Positions 16,896 through 31,004 of a stretch of DNA of 64,000 nt are shown one piece after another. The DNA lies in contig PERO01000020.1 of assembly GCA_002928875.1 (NCBI GenBank), forward strand, positions 186,001 to 250,000, read 5' to 3'. Numbering within the stretch: position 1 is the first letter of the stretch; each line of letters begins with the position of its first letter. This stretch comes from Methylobacterium sp. (GTDB lineage: Bacteria > Pseudomonadota > Alphaproteobacteria > Rhizobiales > Beijerinckiaceae). Under the pieces are notes generated by a model. It saw nothing but the letters and a program-made list of their open reading frames with translations, was not told where the DNA came from and did not search any database. The position numbers and the translations under genes were made by a program.

Positions 16896-18317
16896 TCAGC
16901 GCGGCAGCACGCTTTCGCCCATCAGCATTTCGTCGATGGCGCGCGCGGCTTGCCGGCCCTCGCGGATCGCCCAGACCACGAGGCTCTGGCCGCGGCGCAT
17001 GTCGCCGGCGGCGAAGATCTTCGGCTTGTCGGTGCGGTAATCGGTCTCGTTGGCGATGACGTTCGCGCGCTTGTCCATGGCAACGCCCGCTTCCGTGAGA
17101 AGCCCTTCCTTCACCGAGCCGGCAAAGCCGATGGCGAGGAAGACGAGATCGGCCTTGAGCACGAATTCCGTGCCGGGGATGGGCCGGCGCTTCTCATCCA
17201 CGCGGGCGCATTCCACGCCCGTCACCTTGCCGTTCTTGCCGATGATGCGAAGCGTCGCCGCCTGGAATTCCCGATCCGCGCCCTCGGCCTGCGAGGACGA
17301 TGTGCGGAATTTCGTGGGCCAGAACGGCCAGATCGTCAGCTTGTCCTCGAGCTCCGGCGGCTTCGGGCGGATGTCGAGCTGGGTGACCGACAGGGCCCCC
17401 TGCCGGAAGGCCGTGCCGATGCAATCCGAGGCCGTATCGCCGCCGCCGATCACCACCACGTTCCGGCCGCCCGCGAGCAGCGGCGCATCCGGGATCGGTT
17501 CGTTGCCCACGCGGCGATTGGACTGGGTGAGATAGGGCATCGCGTAATGCACGCCCTCCAGTTCCTGCCCCGGCAGGCCGGGATCGCGCGGCGCTTCCGC
17601 TCCGCCGGCGAGGAGAACCGCATCGAACTCGCGGCCGAGATCCTCGAGCTTCACGTTCACGCCGACATGCGCGTTGTAATGGAAGACGACGCCTTCGGCC
17701 TCCATCTGCTCCACGCGGCGGTCGATATGGTGCTTCTCCATCTTGAAATCAGGGATGCCATAGCGCAACAGGCCGCCAGCCTTGGGCTCGCGCTCGTAGA
17801 CATGCACCTCGTGGCCCACGCGGGCGAGCTGCTGCGCGGCCGCCATGCCCGCCGGACCCGAGCCGATGACGGCGACGCGCTTGCCGGTGCGCGTGGCGGA
17901 CATCTCCGGCTTGATCCAGCCTTCCTTCCAGCCGCGATCGGCGATGGCCTGCTCGACCGTCTTGATCGCGACCGGCATGTTCTCGAGGTTCAGCGTGCAG
18001 GCTTCCTCGCAAGGAGCGGGGCAGATGCGGCCGGTAAATTCCGGGAAGTTGTTGGTCGAATGCAGGTTCGCCAGCGCTTCTTCCCAGTCGTTCTGGTAGA
18101 CGAGGTCGTTCCAGTCCGGGATCTGGTTGTGCACCGGGCAGCCATTGGGGCCGTGGCAATAGGGCACGCCGCAATCCATGCAGCGCGCGGCCTGCTCGCG
18201 CACGTCCTTCTCGTCCATCGGCAGCGTGAATTCGCGGAAGTGGCGGATGCGATCCGACGCCGGCTGGTACTTCGCCTCGCGCCGGTCGATTTCCAGAAAA
18301 CCAGTGACCTTGCCCAT
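16896..18317 (-). CDS. gltD: Glutamate synthase small subunit
   Basis: 473 residues. It takes electrons from NADPH and passes them to GltB. N-terminal cysteines for Fe-S clusters ([16 protein letters not shown], and CPAPCEEAC) are followed by two dinucleotide folds: FAD at [20 protein letters not shown] and NADPH at [11 protein letters not shown]. The ATG at 18317 has AGGTGAG just upstream, and that site is immediately followed by a palindrome of the inserted GIY-YIG unit. Family proteins start MGKVTGFLE as here. Confidence 0.96.
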
Positions 18318-18327
18318 TGTTCTCACC

Positions 18328-18377
18328 TGTCATCCCGTGCGCTTCGCAGCATGGAATGCTGCGATGCAGACACGGGA
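18328..18377. repeat. Palindromic repeat, copy 1, on the gltD side of the GIY-YIG gene
   Basis: A near-complete hairpin. TCCCGTG (18333-18339) pairs with CACGGGA (18371-18377), and TCGCAGCAT pairs with ATGCTGCGA around a three-base loop. It shares two exact blocks, in inverted orientation, with copy 2 at 18721-18770: TGTCATCCCGTGCGC (18328-18342) and TGCGATGCAGACACGGG (18360-18376). It lies between the stop of the GIY-YIG gene and the gltD ribosome-binding site, touching the latter. Confidence 0.9.
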
Positions 18378-18380
18378 CCG

Positions 18381-18698
18381 TCATTCGTTACCGTTCTGCC
18401 GATCCCCGCAAAGCTCGCCGAAACGGTCGAGCCAATCGGGATTGTCCTTCTGGATCAGGGCGATCTTCCAGGCCCTGCGCCATTTCTTCAGTTGTTTCTC
18501 GCGGTCGATGGCCAACGCGGGTTCATCGAAGACTTCCCAGTAGACCAGCCGATCCACGTTGTAGTGCTGGGTGAAACTCCGAACCGCATGCGATTTGTGC
18601 TCCTGCACCCGCCGCACCAGATTGTTCGTCACACCAACATAGATTGGACCATCCCTGCGCGTCGCGAGCATGTAGACGAAGTAAGTTCCGCCAGACAT
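18381..18698 (-). CDS. GIY-YIG nuclease domain protein
   Basis: 105 residues, the size of stand-alone UPF0213/YhbQ-like GIY-YIG proteins. The GIY-YIG core is visible as YFVYMLA...GPIYVGVTNNLVRR (about residues 6-28), with the catalytic Arg in LVRRVQEHK and a later Glu in EKQLKKWRRAWK. The family uses one metal ion to nick or cut DNA. The ATG at 18698 has AGGAAA upstream; a longer frame would run through the palindrome. It is read in the same direction as gltB and gltD, so it would be part of their transcript. Confidence 0.9.
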   Translation of the reverse strand: MSGGTYFVYMLATRRDGPIYVGVTNNLVRRVQEHKSHAVRSFTQHYNVDRLVYWEVFDEPALAIDREKQLKKWRRAWKIALIQKDNPDWLDRFGELCGDRQNGNE

Positions 18699-18720
18699 AC
18701 CGCGATTTCCTGCTCGCGAT

Positions 18721-18770
18721 CCCGTGTCTGCATCGCACCACTGACGTGATGCGATGCGCACGGGATGACA
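18721..18770. repeat. Palindromic repeat, copy 2, on the gltB side of the GIY-YIG gene
   Basis: Inverted copy of the repeat at 18328-18377. CCCGTGTCTGCATCGCA (18721-18737) and GCGCACGGGATGACA (18756-18770) are exact complements of blocks in copy 1. Internally CATCGCA pairs with TGCGATG and CCCGTG with CACGGG, so it can fold as a hairpin. It starts near the ribosome-binding site of the GIY-YIG gene and ends seven bases from the gltB stop. Confidence 0.9.
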
Positions 18771-18777
18771 GCTCACC

Positions 18778-21700
18778 TCACTCTGCGGCCTGCAACTGCC
18801 GCGCCTTTTCCATCTCGCGCAGCGCACGGCGATATTCCACCGGCATCACCTTCACGAATTTGGTGCGGAAATCCGCCCAATGGTCGAGAATGTGCTTCGC
18901 GCGGGCCGAGCCCGTATAGCGCAGATGGTTGGCGACGAGCTGATGAAGGCGCTCCTCATCGTGGCGCGACATGTCGCCCATGATGTCGATGCGGCCCTTG
19001 AACTCAAGATCGCCGCCATGGTGGTGGAGGCGCTGCATCAAATCCTCCTCCTCCTCGACAGGTTCGAGATCGACCATCGAGAGGTTGCAGCGCGAGCGGA
19101 AGGTGCCATCCTCGTCGAGCACATAGGCGACGCCGCCCGACATGCCCGCCGCGAAGTTGCGGCCCGTCTCGCCGATCACCACCACCACGCCGCCGGTCAT
19201 GTATTCGCAGCCATGGTCGCCCACGCCCTCGACCACCGCGATGGCGCCCGAGTTGCGCACGGCGAAGCGCTCGCCGGCCACGCCACGGAAGTAGCACTCG
19301 CCGGAAATCGCGCCATAGAGCACGGTGTTGCCGACAATGATCGAGTTCTCCGCGACGATCGCCGCATCCGGCGCGGGATGGATGATCAGCTTGCCGCCCG
19401 AGAGGCCCTTGCCGACATAATCGTTGGCCTCGCCGATCAGCTCCATCGTCACACCGGCCGCGACCCAGGCGCCGAAGCTCTGGCCCGCCGTGCCGCGCAG
19501 GGTGATGCGGATCGTGTCATCCGGCAGGCCGGCATGGCCATGGCGCTTCGCGACCTCGCCCGAGAGCATGGCACCCGCCGCCCTGTCCCGGCTGAAGATC
19601 TTCTCCTCGATCGCGACCGGCGCACCGCCCTCGATGGCCGACATGGCCTTCGCGATCAGCTTGCGATCGAGCACGTCGGCGATCGGATGGTTCTGCCGCT
19701 CGGCATGCTTCCGCGCCACCGTCGCCGGAACATCCGGGCGGGCGAAGAGCTTCGAGAAATCGAGTCCCTTCGCCTTCCAGTGGTCCACGCCGGCGCGTGT
19801 GTCGAGCAGGTCGGTGCGTCCCGTGATCTCCGTCAGCGAGCGGAAGCCCATGGAGGCGAGGATCTCGCGCACCTGCTCCGCCACGAAGAAGAAATAGTTG
19901 ATCACGTGCTCCGGCTGGCCCTTGAAGCGCTTGCGCAGAACGGGGTCCTGCGTCGCCACGCCCACCGGGCAGGTGTTGAGATGGCACTTGCGCATCATGA
20001 TGCAGCCCGCCGCGATGAGAGGCGCGGTCGAGAAGCCGAACTCGTCGGCGCCGAGCAGCGCGCCGATGATCACGTCGCGGCCCGTGCGCAAGCCGCCATC
20101 GACCTGCAAGGCCACGCGGCCGCGCAGGCGGTTCTTCACCAGAACCTGCTGCGTTTCGGCAAGGCCCATCTCCCAGGGCGAGCCGGCATGCTTGATGGAG
20201 GTGAGCGGGGACGCACCCGTGCCCCCCTCATAGCCCGAGATTGTGATGTGATCCGCGCGTGCCTTCGCAACGCCGGCCGCCACCGTGCCGACGCCGACTT
20301 CCGAGACGAGCTTCACCGAGACATCCGCCGCCGGGTTGACGTTCTTCAGGTCGAAGATCAGCTGCGCGAGATCCTCGATGGAATAGATGTCATGATGCGG
20401 CGGCGGCGAGATCAGGCCCACGCCCGGCGTCGAATGGCGCACCTTGGCGATGACGGCATCGACCTTGTGGCCGGGCAACTGGCCGCCCTCGCCGGGCTTC
20501 GCACCCTGCGCGACCTTGATCTGCATGACATCGGAATTCACGAGATATTCGGTCGTCACACCGAACCGGCCCGAGGCCACCTGCTTGATGGCCGAGCGGC
20601 GCGGGTTGGGCTTGCCGTTGGGCAGCAATTCGAAGCGCGCGGCTTCCTCGCCGCCCTCGCCCGTGTTGGACTTCGCGCCGATGGCGTTCATGGCCTTGGC
20701 GAGCGTCTCATGCGCCTCGCGGCTGATGGAGCCGAAGGACATGGCGCCCGTGGCGAAGCGCTTCACGATCTCGCTCGCGGTTTCCACCTCGTCGAGCGGC
20801 ACCGGATTGCGACCGGTCTCGCCCGCCTTCTTGATATGGAAGAGGCCGCGAATGGTCTGGTAGCGGTTTTCGACCTCGTCGATGCGCTTCGCATAGGCAT
20901 CATAGCGGTCGCGCGCATTCATGCGCACGGCATGCTGAAGGTCCGCGACGACCTCCGAGGACCAGATGTGATCCTCGCCGCGCTGGCGCTGGTTGTATTC
21001 GCCGCCGACATCCAGGAACTTCCGCAGCACGAGGCTGTTCGAGAACGCCTCGCGATGCCGCTGCACCGTCTCCTCGGCGATTTCCTCGAGGCCCACGCCC
21101 TCGATGGTGGTCGCCGTGCCGAAGAAGAACTGGTTCACGAAATCGCTGGAGAGGCCCACGGCATCGAAGATCTGCGCGCCGCAATAGGATTGATAGGTCG
21201 AGATGCCCATCTTGGACATCACCTTCAGCAGGCCCTTGCCCGTCGCCTTGATGAAGCGCTTGACGATCTCGTCCTCGTCCACCTCCTCCGGGATTTCCAT
21301 GTCCGCCTTCATGGCGATCAGGGTCTCGAAGGCGAGATAGGGGTTGATCGCCTCGGCGCCATAACCCGCGAGGCAGGCGAAATGGTGCACCTCGCGCGCT
21401 TCGCCCGTCTCGATCACGAGACCGACCGAGGTACGCAGGCCCTTGCGGATGAGGTGATGATGCACGGCCGCCGTGGCGAGCAGGGCCGGGATCGGGATGC
21501 GATCCGGTCCCACCATGCGATCCGACAGCACGATGATGTTGTAGCCGCCATGCACCGCCGCTTCCGCGCGATCGCACAAGAGCTTCACGGCATCGTCCAT
21601 GCCCTTCGTGCCGCGGCCCGCCGGGAAGGTGATGTCGAGCGTCTTGGTGTCGAAACGGTCCTCGAAATGGCCGATGCAGCGGATCTTCTCGAGATCGCCA

Positions 21701-23562
21701 TTGGTGAGGATCGGTTGGCGCACCTCGAGCCGCTTGCGGCGCGAATTGCCCTCGAGGTCGAAGATGTTGGGACGAGGCCCGATGAACGAGACGAGGCTCA
21801 TCACCAGTTCCTCGCGGATCGGGTCGATCGGCGGGTTCGTCACCTGCGCGAAGTTCTGCTTGAAATAGGTGTAGAGCAGCTTCGACTTGTCGGAGAGCAC
21901 GCTCGGCGGCGTATCCGTGCCCATCGAGCCCACCGCTTCCTGCCCGGTGATCGCCATGGGCGACATCAGCAGCTTCAGGTCTTCCTGCGTGTAGCCGAAG
22001 GCCTTCTGCCGGTCGAGCAGGCTCACATCGGTGCGGCTCGCCCGCGGCTCGACCGGGCGGAGGTCTTCCAGCACGATCTGGCTGCGCTTCAGCCATTCCT
22101 TGTAGGGGTTCGCCTGGGCGAGCTGCGCCTTCATCTCCTCGTCGGAGACGATGCGGCCTTCCATCAGGTCCACCAGCAGCATGCGACCGGGCTGCAGGCG
22201 CCACTTGGTCACGATCTCGCTTTCCGGGAAGGGCAGCACGCCCATCTCGGAGGCCATGACGACGAGGTCGTCCTTGGTCACGAAGTAACGCGCGGGGCGC
22301 AGGCCATTGCGATCGAGCGTCGCGCCGATCTGCCGCCCATCGGTGAAGGCGATCGCCGCCGGGCCGTCCCACGGCTCCATGAGAGCCGCGTGATACTCGT
22401 AGAAGGCGCGGCGCTCCTCGCTCATCAGCGGGTTGCCGGCCCAGGCCTCGGGGATGAGCATCATCACCGCATGGGCGAGGCTGTAGCCGCCGCGCACGAG
22501 GAATTCGAGCGCGTTGTCGAAGCAGGCCGTGTCCGACTGGCCCTCGTAGGAGATGGGCCAGAGCTTGCCGATTTCCGCGCCGAAGAGTTCACTGTCCACG
22601 CTCGCCTGCCGCGCGGCCATCCAGTTCAGGTTGCCGCGCAGGGTGTTGATCTCGCCGTTATGCGCGACCATGCGATAGGGATGGGCGAGCTGCCAGGTCG
22701 GGAAGGTGTTGGTGGAGAAGCGCTGATGCACGAGCGCCAGAGCGCTTTCCACGCGGGGGTCGTTCAGGTCCTTGAAATAACCGCCGAGCTGGTTCGCCAG
22801 CAGCATCCCCTTGTAGACAACCGTGCGGCAGGACACGGAGACCGGATAGACACCCGACTTCGAACGCTCGATGCCGCGATAGATGATGTTCGACACGACC
22901 TTGCGGAAGATGAAGAGCCGGCGCTCGAAATCCTCCTCGCTGGTCACATCCGCGCCACGGCCGATGAAGACCTGCCGGTGGAACGGCTCGGTCGGCAGCA
23001 CGCTCTCGCCGAGATCGGAATTGTCGACCGGCACGTCGCGCCAGCCGAGCACAACCTGCCCCTCGGCTTGAATCGTCTCCTCGATGACCTTCACCGCGCG
23101 GGCGCGCGCATCGTCCTCGCGCGGCAGGAAATACTGCCCCACGGCATAATGGCCGGGCTCGGGCAAGGTGAAGCCGAGCTTCGCGCATTCCTCCGCGAAG
23201 AAGCGGTGCGGGATCTGCAGCAGCATGCCGCAGCCATCGCCCGCCTTCGGATCGGCACCCACCGCGCCGCGATGGTCGAGATTGGCGAGGATCGACAGGC
23301 CGTGCCGGATGATGGTGTGGCTCTTGCGGTTCCTGATATCCGCCACGAAGCCGACGCCGCAGGAATCCTTCTCGTGGCGCGGATCATAAAGACCCTCGGC
23401 CGGGGGCAGGCCAGGATCGCGGACGAGCATGGTTTCCGTCGCGCCGGTGAGCGCGCGCGTCACAAGCGAACGCGCCGGCATGGCGCGCGATTTGGCGGCG
23501 CGCCGAGCCGCGCGCTCGTGCTTCAAGCCGTCCATCTCGTTGTCGCGCCTGGTCATAGCCAT
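18778..23562 (-). CDS. gltB: Glutamate synthase large subunit
   Basis: 1594 residues. It releases ammonia from glutamine and transfers it to 2-oxoglutarate. The N-terminal class-II amidotransferase begins at Cys68 ([11 protein letters not shown]) after a 67-residue leader expected to be removed. Next come the central domain, the FMN domain ([18 protein letters not shown]), the 3Fe-4S cysteines ([15 protein letters not shown]) and the C-terminal beta-helix of GxGxG repeats (about residues 1330-1570). GAGGAAAGG sits five bases before the ATG at 23562. The partner gltD lies downstream beyond the GIY-YIG unit. Confidence 0.97.
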
Positions 23563-29111: not shown

Positions 29112-29196
29112 GTCGCGGTTGACGTTGTCCCGCGGCATGCCCTCCTTGGGCGTTTCCTCCCTAGACTTTCAGGCCGCTTCGTGCGGCCTTTTTTTT
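29112..29196 (+). ncRNA. Small RNA resembling the alphaproteobacterial suhB/MmgR-like families
   Basis: A transcript of about 85 bases is bounded by a good promoter and a strong terminator within the 478-base gap between hisN and the formylglutamate amidohydrolase gene. It contains CCTCCTTGGGC and TTTCCTCCCTAG, two C/U-rich anti-Shine-Dalgarno motifs typical of trans-acting RNAs in Rhizobiales, and the wording agrees with my memory of the suhB/MmgR-like group. The Rfam suhB family is named for its position beside an inositol-monophosphatase gene, and the IMPase-family hisN lies next to it here. No open reading frame fits. The rest of the gap (28895-29076, 29197-29372) shows nothing recognisable. 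Confidence 0.7.
29171..29196 (+). terminator. Rho-independent terminator of the small RNA
   Basis: Seven-base stem AGGCCGC / GCGGCCT with a TTCGT loop, followed by eight Ts. Confidence 0.92.
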
Positions 29197-29372
29197 GCCT
29201 AATCGCCCGGTTGCACCGCGCTTTTCATACCTGCCACGGGTGTTTTTGCCCTTTTCGGGTCTTTTTCCCCTCTTTCAGCGCGAACGGCGAAATCTTGGCC
29301 GGTTGCCCCGGTCTCTCCCCGATTTTCGCATCCGGCCGGCGCGAGGACGCGTGGTCCCCCGCGTGACGGGGG

Positions 29373-30929: not shown

Positions 30930-31004
30930 GGGCGCGTAGCTCAGCGGGAGAGCACTACATTGACACTGTAGGGGTCACAGGTTCAATCCCTGTCGCGCCC
31001 ACCA
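30930..31004 (+). tRNA. tRNA-Val (anticodon GAC)
   Basis: 75 bases including the encoded CCA (31002-31004). The acceptor arms GGGCGCG and CGCGCCC pair fully. The D-arm GCTC/GAGC, anticodon stem CTACA/TGTAG with loop TTGACAC, and T-arm ACAGG-TTCAATC-CCTGT are all present. The anticodon GAC is at 30962-30964. Confidence 0.97.

Follow-up and report, generated by a model that had tools for sequence, protein, structure and literature searches.

RAYTs are HUH tyrosine enzymes (IS200/IS605-like) that go with GTAG-tagged repeats, and DNA cutting is the established activity of GIY-YIG enzymes. Site-specific single-stranded GIY-YIG nucleases (Ssn) were reportedly described in a Nature Communications (Nat Commun) paper of 2025 by Chenal, Veyrier and colleagues, in which the Neisseria enzyme is said to cut the NTS repeat in single-stranded DNA, with an effect on natural transformation.

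According to the portions available of the survey by Di Nocera et al. (2013; PMC3733652), CGTC-tagged REPs carry a CGTC or TGTC tag and a stem starting with AT, form head-to-head dimers with the tags outside, and occur in five phyla, with rickettsial and Neisseria repeats included. In these portions of the survey the repeats are apparently without a dedicated transposase, RAYTs or other transposases are proposed as mobilisers, and the four published families have stems of 8-9 bp and loops of 4-5 bp (PMC3733652). The passages found in PMC6006769 and PMC12306157 were citations of this survey and, among the literature matches listed, no title or abstract connected genes of the GIY-YIG type to REPs, whether CGTC-tagged or not.

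A GIY-YIG gene between two palindromes at gltBD

Within the window, i.e., the whole 64,000-nucleotide stretch of Methylobacterium sp. DNA that was analyzed, the upstream operon gene gltB (18778..23562, stop codon at 18778-18780), a GIY-YIG endonuclease gene (18381..18698) and gltD (16896..18317) are all located on the minus strand. The extent of gltB was taken from its open reading frame (ORF); the start of gltD was placed, using its ORF and a reading of the junction, at the ATG before GKVTGF (18317), with an earlier GTG start at 18326 in the ORF list as the alternative. Translation and the Pfam model PF01541 identified the product of the GIY-YIG gene as a bare catalytic domain of 105 amino acids. 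As the initial annotation had stated, two mutually inverted palindromes of about 50 bases flank this gene in the gltB-gltD gap: the inverted-repeat search and folding placed a TGTC-tagged REP beside gltD (left copy, 18328..18378, plus strand, tag outward on the gltD side) and its inverted copy beside gltB (right copy, 18719..18770, minus strand, tag outward on the gltB side and 7 nt from the gltB stop). The word CTCACC was read on either side of the unit as a direct repeat of 6 bp, at 18322..18327, where it overlaps the ribosome-binding region of gltD, and at 18772..18777; this repeat may be due to chance. Elsewhere in the window, positions 29132-29203 (plus strand) matched the suhB/mmgR small RNA family in Rfam (63.7 bits, gathering threshold 41), and a tRNA-Val is located at 30930-31004.

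The outer arms of the two palindromes (18327-18351 and 18747-18771, 25 nt) and their inner arms (18357-18380 and 18717-18740, 24 nt) were each 92% complementary in the inverted-repeat search, and by reading the copies have in common exact blocks of 16 nt (CTGTCATCCCGTGCGC) and 18 nt (TGCGATGCAGACACGGGA), rather than of the 15 and 17 nt originally given. Both copies follow the same plan from outside to inside, namely TGTCATCCCGTGCGC, a variable hairpin tip, and GCAGACACGGGA; the consistent arm order noted earlier was therefore upheld, with the TGTCAT tag outside and the GCAGACACGGGA arm toward the gene. The tip sequences are unlike between the copies yet paired in each, which together with the constant outer arms suggests that the hairpin may be recognized by arm sequence plus structure. 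The 701-bp stretch contained 24 inverted 12-mer matches, and none of 190 segments of this length drawn at random from the window had more than 9. Folding as single-stranded DNA (ssDNA) gave energies of -20.5 and -21.8 kcal/mol (z -5.6 and -6.8), with none of 200 shuffles as stable, and a two-part stem with a long apical hairpin. Both window copies thus have the tag (TGTCAT, pointing outward) and the head-to-head arrangement of CGTC-tagged REPs but not the 8-9 bp stem and 4-5 bp loop; because its stem is longer and two-part, the window repeat falls outside the four published families.

The protein belongs to the GIY-YIG superfamily (PF01541, E 9.2e-17) and has the conserved core residues; the columns invariant in 38 sequences include Y9, G17, Y20, G22, R30, H34, E67, and N86, some of which we take to be the catalytic core. 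Its fold was predicted with a mean pLDDT of 87.7, and the closest solved structure was UPF0213 1zg2 (fold E 1.5e-4, profile E 1.6e-9), with Slx1 ranking next in the fold comparison at a non-significant level. The NCBIfam search with the window protein gave no match. A defence or phage family was rejected as an identity for the nuclease, given that the PADLOC and PHROGs searches returned no match and 50,697 phage records a single weak one. The features of RAYTs were not found: the window gene is GIY-YIG rather than an HUH transposase, and GTAG palindromes bracket none of the 130 homologues described below.

Three GIY-YIG matches were obtained in the source assembly (3.24 Mb): the window gene, a gene on C13 (43% identical), and a match at C1:55209 lying within a 707-aa frame that looks like UvrC, judged on its length. 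In this assembly, which is about 84% complete, the search for the palindrome recovered only the two window copies, an outcome that the initial annotation had not foreseen; half-matches with one mismatch were located at C1:519400 and C7:104089.

Palindromes beside homologous nucleases

Homologues of the nuclease (E <= 1e-10) were found in 221 of the 397 genomes of the order. Two sets of loci were combined for the bracketing analysis: an order set of 60 loci with about 8 kb per side (the 61 best-scoring listed, minus one near a contig end, the window's own locus being left out) and 80 named loci, the best of 586, that a protein pattern alone had picked out in genome contigs. Removal of 3 duplicates and of 7 loci less than 300 nt from a contig end resulted in 130 testable homologues. 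The detector searched within 300 nt of the match for YGTC with a stem of AT plus 6 nt, a loop of 2-45 nt, and at most one mismatch.

Palindromes with their tags pointing outward were detected on both sides of 67 of the 130 homologues, compared to 14 of 1226 other ORFs of the same loci, which form a rough control because they were called by a simple longest-ORF caller; the proposed pair of a nuclease and flanking hairpins with outward tags therefore holds well past the window locus. Such bracketing was seen in 24/60 loci of the order set, 22/39 further alphaproteobacteria, and 21/31 others, with host groups classed from record titles. At least one side carried a palindrome in 101 of the 130 homologues (132/1226 control ORFs, 8/88 small isolated ORFs), and tags pointed inward on both sides in 22 (13/1226 control ORFs). 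When any 9-nt stem sequence was allowed, YGTC bracketed 66/130 homologues, and the control tags with the same stem bracketed 4 (CTGY), 2 (GACR), 1 (YCTG), 1 (YTGC), and 0 (GTAG). Many of the loci missed by the detector showed the tag variants GTCGTCC, GTCACCC, or GTGTCCC (30 loci read by eye). Among the bracketed non-alphaproteobacterial loci were metagenome-assembled genomes named Omnitrophota, Parcubacteria, Deltaproteobacteria, Armatimonadetes, and Chloroflexi, names that are subject to possible binning errors, and one 'Planctomycetaceae' locus (L186) had Bradyrhizobium-like repeats by eye.

On a Planktothrix agardhii plasmid (NZ_LR882964.1; L316) the neighbors of a homologue are a type IIL restriction gene and, on the other side, drmA of DISARM, and TGTCATTCTGAGTGAAACGAAG repeats that the strict detector missed surround it. 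On a replicon of Azospirillum lipoferum 4B (NC_016623.1, 1489-1782; L317) a homologue separates sufB from sufC, again in a conserved operon, and is flanked on both sides by palindrome dimers in head-to-head arrangement.

It could be argued that small genes happen to fall in repeat-rich gaps and that the hairpins are terminators or mRNA ends, since the gltBD gap and a Bradyrhizobium gap (see below) collect other inserts and repeats. We regard this as very improbable, because bracketing depends on tag and orientation and was found for only 1 of the 88 small isolated ORFs, and because the left and right copies match: of the 72 loci at which both 8-nt arms were found, the window's among them, 45 had identical arms, compared to 8.4% of between-locus pairs.

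The repeat arms are coupled to the lineage of the nuclease. Nuclease and arm distances were correlated over 107 loci (Mantel 0.24) and over 22 Bradyrhizobium-group loci (0.60; p 0.0002 each). On a quick nuclease tree of the 107 loci, in which the protein is short and many forks lack resolution, the 7-nt arms changed 47 times, compared to 69.2 (sd 1.9) after free shuffling and 58.2 (sd 1.6) after shuffling within host families, for which code f36 was taken as Nitrobacteraceae and family-less loci were binned by phylum or as unknown; none of 300 within-family shuffles was as low. In the Bradyrhizobium group, where the nuclease kinds were sorted by eye and 8 of the 30 listed loci were left out for want of a strict palindrome, one kind had CGTCCG, CGCCCG, or GCCCCG arms in 7 of 7 genes, and the other, broad kind had ATTCCGGG arms in 14 of 14 genes, with one further gene having ATCCCGGG; genome G389 carries both kinds (L075 and L088). 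Since the window's repeat family also adjoins nucleases of other branches (L092, L321, and L326), the pairing is not strict. By eye, many clade-A loci (L258-L277, including L260) have a whole head-to-head dimer on each side, and these dimers join two unlike stems, GCCCCG and CGTCCG.

The match between nuclease tree and repeat arms suggests a separate repeat family as the target of each GIY-YIG lineage. It also bears on the idea that the gene is a passenger picked up by another transposase that moves CGTC REPs in trans, as would agree with the RAYTs or other transposases suggested as mobilisers in the available portions of the 2013 survey (PMC3733652). This is improbable in our view, as a mere passenger need not track many unlike repeat families by lineage.

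Copies of the window repeat also occur apart from the gene. Described as TCATCCCGKGCGC N8-34 GCAGAYMCGGGA, the repeat was found in 65 copies in 11 of the 397 genomes of the order, with 0 control matches, and 63 of these copies are in 10 genomes other than its own. Among the 25 loci returned, 6, at four places (G000, G062, G176, and G298), had a nuclease homologue within about 1.5 kb and 19 did not. Lone palindromes of the same family, which the initial annotation had suggested, thus exist in other genomes and not in the source genome. Covariation was assessed using 38 distinct 48-nt copies of the 58 listed, with other lengths excluded. The apical stem covaries: 77 cells were changed on both sides of a pair, compared to 24.7 (sd 4.9) in shuffled and at most 12 in slid alignments, and the covariation score over the 38 copies was 0.308 compared to 0.128. 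Two of the five measures were no higher than in the shuffles, namely the number of doubly changed pairs (8 vs. 7.0) and that of further pair types (20 vs. 20.4).

Presence, loss and possible mobility of the unit

In the genus, homologues were found in 10 of 17 genomes (window genome counted); those besides the window gene were 41-48% identical, and most were flanked by palindromes of different families (by eye). All 17 gltBD junctions were read, and the gene was found there in the window genome alone and was missing from the 16 others. The initial annotation had held that its reading would fall if the gene sat at gltBD in all relatives and no further palindromes were present in the genome; the second situation was encountered and the first was not. 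The 77 C-terminal residues of gltB had a match in 60 of 60 genomes of a family sample, from which 50 gltBD loci were read with gltD in reach at 46. At these 46 junctions the gene was present in two, the window genome and G423 (L138), whose gene is 63% identical to the window gene and is accompanied by palindromes that, by eye, follow the arm design of the window copies. The gap was at most 18 nt in 15 of the 46, and it was filled by gene-less palindrome dimers in L117, L123, and L129 (detector) and in L116, L127, and L128 (by eye). A third gltBD copy of the gene was found in a different family (G066, L054); its palindromes are of the window's own kind, but with the tag AGTCAT on the one read. 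The gene thus recurs at gltBD in two genera besides the window's, and none besides these three cases was found when 142 loci were checked for gltB adjoining the nuclease gene. In the tree, L054 is the sister of the window gene (88/92, short of the support marked by a star in the tree tool), and L138 falls in an 11-row clade with the window gene (95/86).

A clean empty gltBD site was not found in the other genus genomes: their gaps are unlike, non-alignable stretches of 100-170 bp or, in three, hold part or all of another gene, which by eye resembles a glutathione S-transferase in L114 and L152, with a shorter remnant in L156; this other insertion in L114 and L152 indicates that the junction tolerates inserts. 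Presence at gltBD is patchy, and the three scattered cases may reflect either a preference of the unit for this junction or the loss of an old insertion in most lineages. Vertical descent of a single old gltBD insertion would still be compatible with the sister relation and the shared clade in the tree.

The insertion site of the clade-A gene of G508 was compared in the Bradyrhizobium group, in which its flank is present in 113 of 117 genomes. The 30 loci read comprised 1 with the clade-A gene, 7 in which the sequence retrieved held a different GIY gene, and 22 without; in L296, L300, L304, and L308 the start of this different gene is visible in the gap, where repeats of the GTCGTCCCTGCG type or variants precede it. 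The nearest genome to G508 (G546, flank 95% identical) has no gene and carries different repeats at the site, which is therefore not a clean empty site. In L178 the gene at the common Bradyrhizobium site has its flanks exchanged, i.e., it is inverted relative to L179 and others.

Presence and absence at one site, as seen for mobile elements, was hence observed both at gltBD (1/17) and at the Bradyrhizobium site (8/30), a pattern that loss of an old insertion would also give. Over 73 bracketed loci, with duplicate loci left in, the longest shared flank word had a mean of 1.30 compared to 1.24 when shuffled, and target-site duplication as a rule was rejected. In 71 loci the flanks showed a weak excess of similarity over shuffles, both in inverted orientation (5.60 vs. 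4.78, p 0.002; 4 of the 71 loci exceeded the 99% level) and in direct orientation (5.06 vs. 4.76, p 0.02).

Repeat copy number was surveyed for another repeat family in the 117 Bradyrhizobium-group genomes. Mean copies were 13.2 in the 37 genomes with a clade-A nuclease, 6.3 in the 64 without, and 7.1 in 16 intermediate ones (13.2 vs. 6.3, p 6e-6, uncorrected for kinship). One genome (G537) contains 33 copies of the GTCATCGTCCGCG..CGGACGAT repeat and no GIY-YIG match at E <= 1e-12; either repeats outlive the nuclease or a different enzyme is at work. A simple copy-number law was discarded, as clade-A genomes hold twice the repeats, yet nuclease-free genomes can hold many; the link between the number of repeats and the presence of the nuclease is a loose one.

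The self-spreading unit proposed in the initial annotation did not find confirmation in these data, which contain no general target duplication, no empty site with exact borders, and, in G537, many repeats without the nuclease. Self-spreading is plausible from the sequence patterns, and active mobility of the unit itself is a possibility that we hold with some reserve.

Relation to Ssn, RAYTs and CGTC-tagged REPs

A homologue 49% identical to the window protein was found in an N. gonorrhoeae chromosome filed among plasmids, and on its flanks CGTCATTCCCGCG..CGGGAAT repeats occur in either orientation. These repeats agree with the reported NTS consensus, and this homologue may be Ssn itself. Two records, NZ_CP119140.1 and NZ_CP119142.1, are listed in PLSDB as Neisseria gonorrhoeae plasmids, and their size of about 2.17 Mb points to chromosomes. 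Because the gonococcal homologue and its flanking repeat agree with what is reported of Ssn, cutting of its own palindromes is the best inference for the window enzyme, which by this analogy is probably of the single-strand-specific Ssn kind; the enzyme and repeat together are most likely a further member of that kind. A nuclease-hairpin pair with cutting directed by the hairpin is accordingly the reading that we consider likely.

Under the proposed mechanism, the small GIY-YIG endonuclease would recognize the two head-to-head, TGTC-tagged (CGTC-type) REP hairpins bracketing its own gene and would cut the palindrome once this is single-stranded, as on the lagging strand or in transforming DNA. 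Such cuts followed by repair or recombination could lead to turnover and spread of the bracketed gene and, in trans, of gene-less palindrome dimers.

The same enzyme could instead serve its host by tuning the uptake or recombination of repeat-bearing DNA, in which case the pair would not be mobile and the nearby repeats would be a few of its many sites in the genome. This would fit the reported role of Ssn in natural transformation in Neisseria, the arrays of such repeats among which the gonococcal homologue sits, and the retention of one site across many Bradyrhizobium-group genomes; it fits less well with the gene being present in some genomes and missing from others at gltBD and at the Bradyrhizobium site, with the symmetrical outward tags near the gene, and with a window genome that has no other palindrome copy to act on. 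We therefore view a host-serving function as credible though rather doubtful.

Extending the reading of a nuclease acting on its flanking hairpins, it may tentatively be proposed that CGTC REPs have their missing dedicated enzymes in the GIY-YIG nucleases, spreading their own gene and gene-less dimers in many phyla. A second REP-mobilising system, chemically unrelated to RAYTs and based on single-strand cutting at YGTC-bounded hairpins, is likewise conceivable, if somewhat short of probable. The window locus is one case of a broad nuclease-hairpin pattern that makes the old question of the CGTC-REP enzyme testable. Should every GIY-YIG lineage indeed target a repeat family of its own, the origin and spread of CGTC REPs could be tested at the bench and flanking palindromes would predict the targets of many small nucleases. 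The gene is GIY-YIG and not RAYT, and part of the different mechanism that the initial annotation envisaged for it may already be published in the Ssn work. If that work covers the enzyme, the present analysis adds the connection to the REP superfamily at large, a pairing specific to lineages, and gains and losses within conserved operons, gltBD being one.

By both profile and fold, the closest solved structures are those of UPF0213/YhbQ-like proteins (1zg2 and 1ywl), Slx1, and the UvrC N-domain. The unit resembles Ssn/NTS in its small GIY-YIG protein and in the expected repeat flanking the gonococcal homologue, and differs in that the window repeat is unlike NTS, forms a long two-part hairpin, has two genomic copies, and is set in the gltB-gltD gap. 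With RAYT/REP and REPIN systems it has in common a single-domain nuclease gene amid inverted hairpins, and gene-less trans copies in some genomes; in contrast to these, it combines GIY-YIG with YGTC tags, GTAG palindromes bracketing none of the 130 homologues. It is like the CGTC-tagged REPs, as presented in the available portions of the 2013 survey (PMC3733652), in the TGTC tag, the intergenic location, the head-to-head dimer with tags outside, and the stem that starts with AT in one window copy and nearly so in the other, and is distinguished from them by a gene inside the dimer and by a longer, two-part stem.
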